A stretch of 38,571 nt of DNA from a virus: IMG/VR virus record IMGVR_UViG_3300027793_000152, positions 1-38,571 of that record; one strand, given 5' to 3'. How positions within the stretch are numbered: position 1 is the first letter of the stretch; the number at the start of each line of letters is the position of its first letter. The notes beneath the pieces are model-generated. The model ran no database searches. It worked only from the letters and a program-made list of their open reading frames with translations, and had not been told where the DNA came from. This document shows, one piece after another, positions 10,209 to 32,294 of the stretch. Made by a program: the position numbers and the translations under genes.

Positions 10209-10295
10209 GGAGGTTTGGCAGAGCGGTTGAATGCGTCAGTCTTGAAAACTGAATTACGGGAAACTGTAACTGGGGTTCGAATCCCTGAGCCTCCG
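10209..10295 (+). tRNA. tRNA-Ser (anticodon TGA)
   Basis: 87 nt with a class II fold. The acceptor stem GGAGGTT pairs with AGCCTCC, and the discriminator is G. The anticodon stem TCAGT/ACTGA encloses loop CTTGAAA with anticodon TGA. There is a long variable arm and the T loop is TTCGAAT. The 3' CCA is not encoded. It decodes UCA, a codon common in this AT-rich DNA. A terminator hairpin follows directly, so it is a single-gene transcript. Confidence 0.95.
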
Positions 10296-10297
10296 CA

Positions 10298-30722: not shown

Positions 30723-30751
30723 AAAAAAAAAGGGGAAGCCGTCGCTTCCCC
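30723..30751 (-). terminator. Terminator of the ncRNA
   Basis: GGGGAAGC / GCTTCCCC perfect stem, 4-nt loop, with an A run on the plus strand (T run on the minus strand). Confidence 0.9.
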
Positions 30752-31032
30752 GAATCTCCGTCGAGATAATTTTGGTCTAATTTTTTTGAACTAAGGGCGA
30801 AAGACCGATAAACCCGTGGGAGTGGACAACTCCTGTTTTGTACACATGTCTCAAAACATTCAAGAAAAAGACGTAGTTGTTAGTTTATTGAGGATAAAAC
30901 TGGATTGACCTTTCCACGTAAACCTCCCGTGTTTTGATTGACCTTCAATTTTCTAATTTATAGAGCGGAGAAGAAAATAGGTCGGGTGAGTATGGGGAAC
31001 CACCACAAGAAAACCATTCCGCTGTCCATTTG
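30723..31032 (-). ncRNA. Unidentified structured non-coding RNA, about 300 nt
   Basis: No reading frame fits this stretch, but it has a perfect host-type promoter at 31038-31068 and a strong terminator at 30723-30751. The expected RNA begins near 31031. Visible structure: a stem AGCGGA/TCCGCT (30964-30969 with 31018-31023), a hairpin GGAGT-ggaca-ACTCC (30819-30833) and a 10-nt direct repeat (GATTGACCTT at 30903 and 30936, 33 nt apart). GC content is higher in short islands than in neighbouring genes. I looked for RNase P, tmRNA and 6S hallmarks and found none. It lies downstream of the aberrant tRNA, on the same strand. Confidence 0.75.
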
Positions 31033-31037
31033 TTTTA

Positions 31038-31068
31038 CAAAGATAAGAAAGATTTTAATGCCTTCCAA
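31038..31068 (-). promoter_or_regulatory. Host-type promoter of the ncRNA
   Basis: On the minus strand TTG (31066-31068), exactly 20 nt, TATCTTTG (31038-31045). The box and spacing are identical to the tRNA promoter at 31206. Confidence 0.75.
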
Positions 31069-31107: not shown

Positions 31108-31195
31108 TGGTTGGGAGTGGAGTCGAACCACTGGCACACGGTGTTCACCCGCTGCTCTACCATAAACCCCGAAGAGTTACTGAGCTACCTCAACC
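31108..31195 (-). tRNA. Unusual tRNA, tentative Phe (GAA), with hairpin in the D loop
   Basis: 88 nt. The 3' half is a normal tRNA: T stem AGTGG/CCACT, loop TTCGACT, 3' acceptor strand CCCAACC, discriminator A. The 5' strand GGTTGAGG pairs if one A is bulged. The D stem GCTC/GAGC is intact, but the D loop is about 18 nt larger than usual. It contains a small hairpin AACTC-TTCG-GGGTT with the stable C(UUCG)G loop. The anticodon arm is short: GCGG/CCGT with loop GTGAACA, giving anticodon GAA if T33 is placed normally. CCA is not encoded. It has its own promoter and terminator, so it is expressed. Isotype is uncertain. Confidence 0.7.
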
Positions 31196-31205
31196 AATTG
31201 TCTTA

Positions 31206-31236
31206 CAAAGATATGTTATCTTGTTCAGACTATCAA
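31206..31236 (-). promoter_or_regulatory. Host-type promoter of the aberrant tRNA
   Basis: On the minus strand TTG (31234-31236), exactly 20 nt, TATCTTTG (31206-31213), about 10 nt before the tRNA 5' end. Confidence 0.75.
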
Positions 31237-31345
31237 ATTTTGTAAGAACTTTTTTTGTTCGAAGACCGAGTATCTTTCATCGCCTGTAAGTTCCGAACTG
31301 AATACAAAACTAATAACTAATTTTTATTCCGTCAAATTTTTTTTG

Positions 31346-31357: not shown

Positions 31358-31996
31358 ATGAAAAAATTATTAATAGTAACCCTTTTTTGTCTGAGTTCAA
31401 TTGTCTCATATTCACAAGACACTGTTAGAATTAAACATACAAATTACAGTACGGTTTTCTCAAAATCTAAAAAGTATCCTGTGGTGGTTGAATGGTGGGT
31501 CACTAAAAATATGGTTACCTGTCCAACTCCATTGAAAAGAAAAGACAACTTCAAAGCTGACCCAAAACTATTTCAATATACAGATTTATCAAAAGATTAT
31601 GTGGGGAGTGGTTTCGACAGAGGACATATGATGCCAGCAGCAGATAACTTGTGCCAAACTCAACAGGTTCAGGATGAGTGTTTTTATTTTTCAAACATGG
31701 CAGCACAATATCATAGTTTGAATGCTGGTGATTGGAAGTCTTTGGAAACTTTCGTTAGAGAGGAAGCCAAGAAAAGTGATTCAATTCGTGTGTGGTGTGG
31801 TAATATTGGTGAAATCAAAAAGATTGGTTCTGTATCTGTACCAAAATATTGTTGGAAAGTAATTTACATCAAGAAAGAAAATATTTGGAAATCATTCCTA
31901 TTTGAAAACAACACTTCAAAACCTGATGGGTTTCAAAACAACAAAGTCGAGATTTCTGAGATTGAAAAAATGACGGGTCTAAAATTTAAGAATTAG
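31358..31996 (+). CDS. Exported DNA/RNA non-specific endonuclease
   Basis: 212 residues, ATG at 31358. The TTG at 31343 lies inside the late box and is rejected. Signal peptide MKKLLIVTLFCLSSIVSYSQ. The nuclease signature is FDRGHMMPAAD with H90 as the general base in DRGH (87-90). N113 in YFSNMAAQYHSLNAGDWKSLE fits the metal-binding Asn, with E130 downstream. This is the NUC/EndA beta-beta-alpha-metal family. It would be active in the periplasm or outside the cell, where it could cut incoming phage DNA or free DNA. It has a late-type box and an exported nature that differs from the usual intracellular phage nucleases. Confidence 0.93.
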   Translation: MKKLLIVTLFCLSSIVSYSQDTVRIKHTNYSTVFSKSKKYPVVVEWWVTKNMVTCPTPLKRKDNFKADPKLFQYTDLSKDYVGSGFDRGHMMPAADNLCQTQQVQDECFYFSNMAAQYHSLNAGDWKSLETFVREEAKKSDSIRVWCGNIGEIKKIGSVSVPKYCWKVIYIKKENIWKSFLFENNTSKPDGFQNNKVEISEIEKMTGLKFKN

Positions 31997-32282
31997 AAAC
32001 TCCGTCGAGATATTTTTTTATTGTTCTTCTGATTTTTTGTTCTCCTAAAGAAACCCATTCGTCTTCAATAATCTGAAATATTTTACCAACAAGGTACTTC
32101 TTGTTATTCAACAAAGGTCTAGTCTTATCTTCAATTTGAATAAATTTTGCAGGTTGTTTCATCCAATCGAAGTTAATTTCGTGAGTGGGAAAATGTCTTT
32201 TAAGATAAGTTAATAGCTCATCTGATGTGTCCTCAACATATTTCGATAAAATATCTTTTCTTTCTTCCTCTGTGATACGCAT
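31986..32282 (-). CDS. Small late protein with short acidic leader
   Basis: 98 residues, ATG at 32282, 4 nt after a late-type box. The ATG at 32288 lies within the box and is rejected. The start MRITEEERKDILSKYVED has I-T-E at residues 3-5 (a possible cleavage site) and helps place it with the leader-bearing family. The remainder is a small mixed fold (HEINFDWMKQPAKFIQIED). It converges with the nuclease gene, overlapping its 3' end by 11 nt. Confidence 0.65.
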   Translation of the reverse strand: MRITEEERKDILSKYVEDTSDELLTYLKRHFPTHEINFDWMKQPAKFIQIEDKTRPLLNNKKYLVGKIFQIIEDEWVSLGEQKIRRTIKKYLDGVSNS

Positions 32283-32286
32283 ATTC

Positions 32287-32294
32287 ATAAATAT
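32287..32294 (-). promoter_or_regulatory. Late-type promoter box (ATATTTAT)
   Basis: ATATTTAT ending 4 nt before the ATG at 32282. Divergent from the box at 32299, with 4 bp between them. Confidence 0.6.

Follow-up and report, generated by a model that had tools for sequence, protein, structure and literature searches.

What kind of gene is represented by a stretch of about 300 nt that has a promoter and a terminator but no reading frame, and that lies beside an aberrant tRNA in a phage genome? The question arises from a 38,571-nt IMG/VR stretch (the window) in which an earlier inspection, here termed the sequence-only reading, had placed such an RNA at 30723–31032. These coordinates held: the gene, for a structured and stand-alone non-coding RNA of ~305 nt, occupies the minus strand from about 31031 to 30724. 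Judged by its relatives, the RNA is a member of a new, previously uncatalogued family of phage-encoded stand-alone structured RNAs.

Transcription signals and neighbouring elements

The relevant features of the locus, in the direction of transcription, are as follows.

31239–31298 (−): conserved leader hairpin with core ACUUACAGGCGAUGAAAGAUACUCGG and boxA-like GUUCUUACAAA, at the start of the tRNA/RNA cassette
31108–31195 (−): tRNA-Phe(GAA) with a hairpin insert in the D-loop (AACUC UUCG GGGUU); Rfam tRNA 26.5 bits, homologues
31038–31068 (−): Bacteroidota-type promoter of the RNA, TTG-N20-TATCTTTG, with transcription expected to start at ~31031; sequence, homologues
30724–31031 (−): structured non-coding RNA, ~305 nt; blastn and nhmmer homologues, covariance model, pair counts
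30723–30751 (−): intrinsic terminator GGGGAAGC(GACG)GCUUCCCC plus U run; 99.5% paired, six of eight pairs covarying

The host-type promoter previously claimed corresponds to TTGGAAGGCATTAAAATCTTTCTTATCTTTG at 31068–31038 (−), which matches TTTG ... TAnnTTTG, the Bacteroidota promoter type. A TATCTTTG/TATCTTTA box was present at the promoter position in all homologues but five, in which the RNA directly abuts the CCA of the tRNA. A sigma-70 scan missed the promoter, the Bacteroidota type being outside its coverage. The strong terminator was likewise confirmed as a G+C-rich stem of 8 bp (30751–30732) followed by a T run. Hairpins closed by C(GACG)G recur at terminator-like sites in the window, at 32002–32007 and, on the minus strand, at 30758–30763 and 30739–30744.

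The absence of a reading frame also stood: no convincing ORF was found on the RNA strand, where the longest comprises 28 aa, and the frame and position of the short ORFs vary among homologues, with no conserved reading frame found. A coding role was rejected on the basis of this lack of conservation. The 10-nt direct repeat reported with a period of 33 (AAGGTCAATC) is indeed present in the window, but is broken in homologues (for example, AAGGTTTATC/AAGGTCATTC in L007), and is probably fortuitous rather than a conserved part of the RNA.

The aberrant neighbour proved to be a tRNA-Phe(GAA), whose promoter at 31236–31206 (−) is of the same type as that of the RNA and has identical spacing. Its D-loop insert varies among phages but keeps its stem (AACUCUUCGGGGUU, GUGUGGCAUUACCACAC); L103, L134 and L371 lack it. 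Insert-free homologues were called Phe(gaa) by ARAGORN, and anticodons were read by eye where the insert defeated that program. At nearly every locus of which the upstream side was read, the RNA lies beside a tRNA-Phe(GAA), with the tRNA upstream. Elsewhere in the window, a tRNA-Ser(UGA) at 10209–10296 (+) also has a host-type promoter upstream.

The leader hairpin at the head of the cassette has its own promoter at 31335–31305 (−), and gave no Rfam match at its position in the window. Hairpins with the core ACUUAUAGGUGAUGAAAGAUACUCGGU and a covarying outer stem, located just after host-type promoters, were present in 107 IMG/VR stretches (e.g. L354–L436), with a tandem duplicate in L430; the GTTCTTTGAAA-like sequence that follows resembles a Bacteroidota boxA. 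The leader resembles a phage element for processive antitermination (nut/put-like).

Many window genes have the motif TATTTAT 10–25 bases before their start codons (e.g. 7785, 11433, 25841 and 30699), probably as a phage-specific promoter. As judged by inspection, the motif precedes many phage genes, unlike the tRNA and the RNA, a contrast which suggests distinct promoter classes and an RNA made early by the host polymerase, the early timing being read from promoter type.

Homologues and family membership

Relatives were sought using as bait the nuclease gene at 31358–31993 (Pfam Endonuclease_NS) and the gene at 31986–32288, and full-length homologues extending from promoter to terminator were recovered by blastn and nhmmer. 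A motif scan of IMG/VR returned 39 stretches, all of them homologues by nhmmer, and a second motif returned 31; the pattern AAAACACGGGNNGTTT was too loose, and returned mostly unrelated contigs. Further members, in whole contigs, came from a covariance model built on the first 115 positions at the 5' end, the E-values of which are only rough; they include one in a 317-kb phage and a diverged copy of the RNA in a 145-kb contig. Alignment of 24 distinct full-length sequences, a figure which does not count independent lineages, gave pairwise identities of 45–97% with a mean of 62%. In addition to the window, members occur in IMG/VR contigs of up to 326 kb, and a contig of 111 kb has the RNA three times in tandem at a spacing of ~311 nt, every copy preceded by a promoter of its own.

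A scan of 84,980 bacterial and archaeal genomes with the motif used on IMG/VR gave only chance-level matches, among them pattern matches in 12 bacterial contigs which showed little similarity outside the query motif and were rejected. Named phages yielded no match to the RNA, the best matches of the first such search being to the promoter region or due to chance, and a profile search with an alignment of the upstream neighbour protein provided no usable stretch. The nearest cultured relatives, by two window proteins (42% and 26% identity), are the Flavobacterium phages immuto; the host of the window phage is therefore probably a flavobacterium or a relative. The uncultured phages that carry the family probably infect Bacteroidota.

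The Rfam covariance search proposed in the sequence-only reading returned no family at the gathering threshold; relaxed to E ≤ 10, it yielded a scatter of matches attributable to chance. The lack of tmRNA, RNase P, 6S or other common-RNA signatures noted there was upheld, with no match to the RNase P RNA, 6S RNA or SRP RNA covariance models, and with both ARAGORN and Rfam negative for tmRNA. The likeness to tmRNA is architectural, each being a stable intergenic RNA of ~300–350 nt with several pseudoknots; the present RNA, however, has neither tRNA-like ends nor a tag reading frame, and it ends in a terminator.

Covariation and the pseudoknotted fold

The first evidence for structure was weak, since the folding energy of the single window sequence lay within chance (z −1.23; 12 of 100 shuffles equally good). 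The proof of structure is comparative rather than energetic; covariation, together with the homologues and the lack of an Rfam match, bears out the structured phage RNA proposed in the sequence-only reading. The helices are listed below.

31024–31027 (−): P0, 5' strand GGAC, with the P8 hairpin loop GUCC (30827–30824)
31018–31023 (−): P1, 5' strand AGCGGA, with UCCGCU (30969–30964) within the P3 loop, a pseudoknot
30985–31004 (−): P2, hairpin GGUG/CACC with strongly conserved loop GUUCCCCAUACU; 100% paired, nearly invariant
30940–30983 (−): P3, hairpin GACC..UUUCU/AGAAA..GGUC with conserved loop UCUCCGCUCUAUAAAUU; pair counts
30882–30901 (−): P5, hairpin AGUUU/AAACU; 70% of cells paired, compensatory changes in all five pairs
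30835–30872 (−): P6/P7, H-type pseudoknot, P6 being GUCU (30872–30869) with AGAC (30851–30848) and P7 GUUUU (30857–30853) with AAAAC (30839–30835); swap test (P6), pair counts (P7)
30819–30833 (−): P8, hairpin GGAGU-UGUCC-ACUCC; all five pairs covary, 41 double-sided cells
30754–30767 (−): P10, hairpin AUCUC(GACG)GAGAU; 98% paired, 23 double-sided cells

When this named structure of 56 pairs, pseudoknots included, was counted on a MAFFT alignment of the 24 sequences, 89.1% of cells were paired, as against 80.9% in shuffled alignments and 43–56% when the structure was slid, the structure having an advantage over its slid versions in that it was drawn up from the same sequences. Double-sided change was recorded in 29 pairs (18.9 when shuffled), and double-sided compensatory cells numbered 138, compared with 49.8 in shuffles that leave shared ancestry in place (0 of 500 as high) and 11–47 in the slid controls. 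Against shared ancestry as the whole explanation speak the slid controls, the tandem copies with their divergence, and co-loss. Comparison of the homologues shows a predicted fold that is compact, held by several pseudoknots, under selection and preserved through compensatory mutation.

P8, P10, the terminator, P5, P7 and P3 are the strong helices. In P3, 61–72% of cells are paired in the outer part, with many compensatory changes, and 85% in the inner part; in P1, 94% are paired, with one compensatory change. P0, by its comparative record a long-range pseudoknot that closes the RNA, is paired in 24 of 24 sequences, with C-G replaced by U-A in five related ones; the first copy of the tandem array has AAGACA with UGUCUU in its place, and the diverged copy of L249 is without both partners. 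P6, which crosses P7, was distinguished by the own-versus-swapped test (0/5000). The P2 loop could pair with GGGAG (30928–30924), and is so paired in 93% of cells; this contact is plausible, but not proven because double-sided change is absent, and swapped tandem copies score equally well. P4, P9 and P11, which are visible as stems in subgroups, are likewise plausible, and were not proven by alignment counts or swap tests, own pairing being no better than swaps for P4 and P9 and 212 of 5000 swaps being as good for P11.

At L249 2727–2420 (−), a tRNA-like stretch in permuted order (T-arm before D-arm), with a sub-threshold YrlA match (E 0.0045), adjoins the diverged copy of the RNA. A stretch resembling a group I intron core, recognised by eye, lies downstream, and the end of the upstream ORF resembles a homing endonuclease; the neighbourhood is possibly a circularly permuted intron.

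Genomic context and candidate roles

Given that the window gene downstream of the RNA, a virion gene, starts 24 bases past the terminator on the same strand, the RNA might be a cis-acting 5' leader or attenuator of that gene. The flanking genes are syntenic among homologues, but the gene directly downstream of the RNA differs, and is antisense to it in L129; L371 retains the leader, the tRNA-Phe and the virion gene with the RNA absent, and L182 lacks both tRNA and RNA. A TATTTAT motif of its own precedes the downstream gene, as is the case for many window genes. A cis-regulatory leader or riboswitch is largely refuted by the lack of a conserved downstream gene, and such a role is considered highly improbable. 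Since the RNA may be missing from relatives, whether or not the tRNA is present, and is not followed by a constant gene, it is judged from these arrangements to be an accessory transcript rather than a leader, and is probably trans-acting. In five homologues (L112, L106, L017, L127 and L142) the promoter of the RNA is missing and the RNA starts right after the tRNA CCA; its 5' end would therefore derive from tRNA 3' processing, at the same position as the promoter-driven start.

With about an even chance of being correct as a whole, the best explanation is that of a new family of structured phage RNA which acts in trans by binding a macromolecule. The host RNA polymerase would transcribe the RNA from the early-type promoter or, in one sub-lineage, the RNA would be processed off the tRNA-Phe transcript at its 3' end. 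It would then act through its three-dimensional shape, rather than by coding or by base-pairing to phage mRNA, and would bind and occupy, scaffold or mimic a host or phage macromolecule during cell take-over, with the translation, transcription or defence machinery as candidate targets. Macromolecule binding is adopted here as the default assumption for structured RNAs; no gene was found to be conserved specifically together with the RNA. We would rank it first, followed by RNA-only assembly as in ROOL or GOLLD, a defence decoy, and antisense action.

In its search of the literature on structured RNAs in such phages, the analysis found only the ROOL, GOLLD and OLE work relevant. ROOL is encoded by phages and prophages near tRNA genes, is rich in pseudoknots, has no known protein partner or function, and measures 659 nt in the solved member (PMC12286853); GOLLD is phage-encoded, near tRNAs and structured, with function unknown, and exceeds 800 nt in many members (PMC12286853). 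The sequence-only reading had likened the RNA in its habit to these larger RNAs, and the likeness survives: the RNA is phage-borne, is immediately preceded by tRNA-Phe at almost every locus, and contains multiple pseudoknots (P0, P1/P3 and P6/P7). It could accordingly be imagined as a compact analogue that self-assembles by loop–loop contacts into a particle near the site of tRNA production, in keeping with the tandem copies, with the lack of a protein partner (as for ROOL and GOLLD; PMC12286853), and with several loop pairings that might form between molecules. One molecule can, however, satisfy all the pairings, and at ~305 nt the RNA is half the size or less, unrelated to ROOL in sequence and structure and different from GOLLD in architecture; neither Rfam covariance model gave a match at gathering level or at E ≤ 10. 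The RNA was not filed under ROOL or GOLLD because size, sequence and covariance models fail to match, and a compact analogue is regarded as unlikely.

Pseudoknotted antitoxin RNAs are known, and an RNA antitoxin or decoy directed at a nuclease of host defence or at a system that cuts tRNA, paired with a replacement tRNA-Phe, would fit the accessory presence and absence, the pseudoknot-rich fold and the coupling to tRNA-Phe(GAA); it is argued by analogy to those antitoxins, no defence partner was found, and we consider it improbable. An antisense or guide role in trans, with host RNA bound by the conserved loops CCCCAUACU and UCUAUAAAUUAGAAA, is likewise considered improbable. Loop sequence is strongly conserved beyond the needs of pairing, but the conserved parts UCCGC and UGUCC are accounted for by internal pseudoknots, and within the rest of the phage window complementarity to the RNA showed no excess (best 13 nt; shuffles 11–14). 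An antisense or a catalytic role is possible.

A more novel proposal, made tentatively and with distinctly less than even expectation, is that the family may form a new class of compact, pseudoknot-locked RNA-only device for the take-over of Bacteroidota cells, either a self-assembling particle below the size of ROOL and GOLLD or a decoy by which a host machine is disabled, moving as one module with the D-loop-extended tRNA-Phe and an antitermination-like leader. Few structured phage RNAs are known, and the work extends their number by a family that is well supported and whose pseudoknotted fold can be tested. The family sits in large uncultured phages, the RNAs of which are almost unexplored, and its function is directly testable with the alignment, the covariance model and the clean pairs of loci that differ in its presence or absence.
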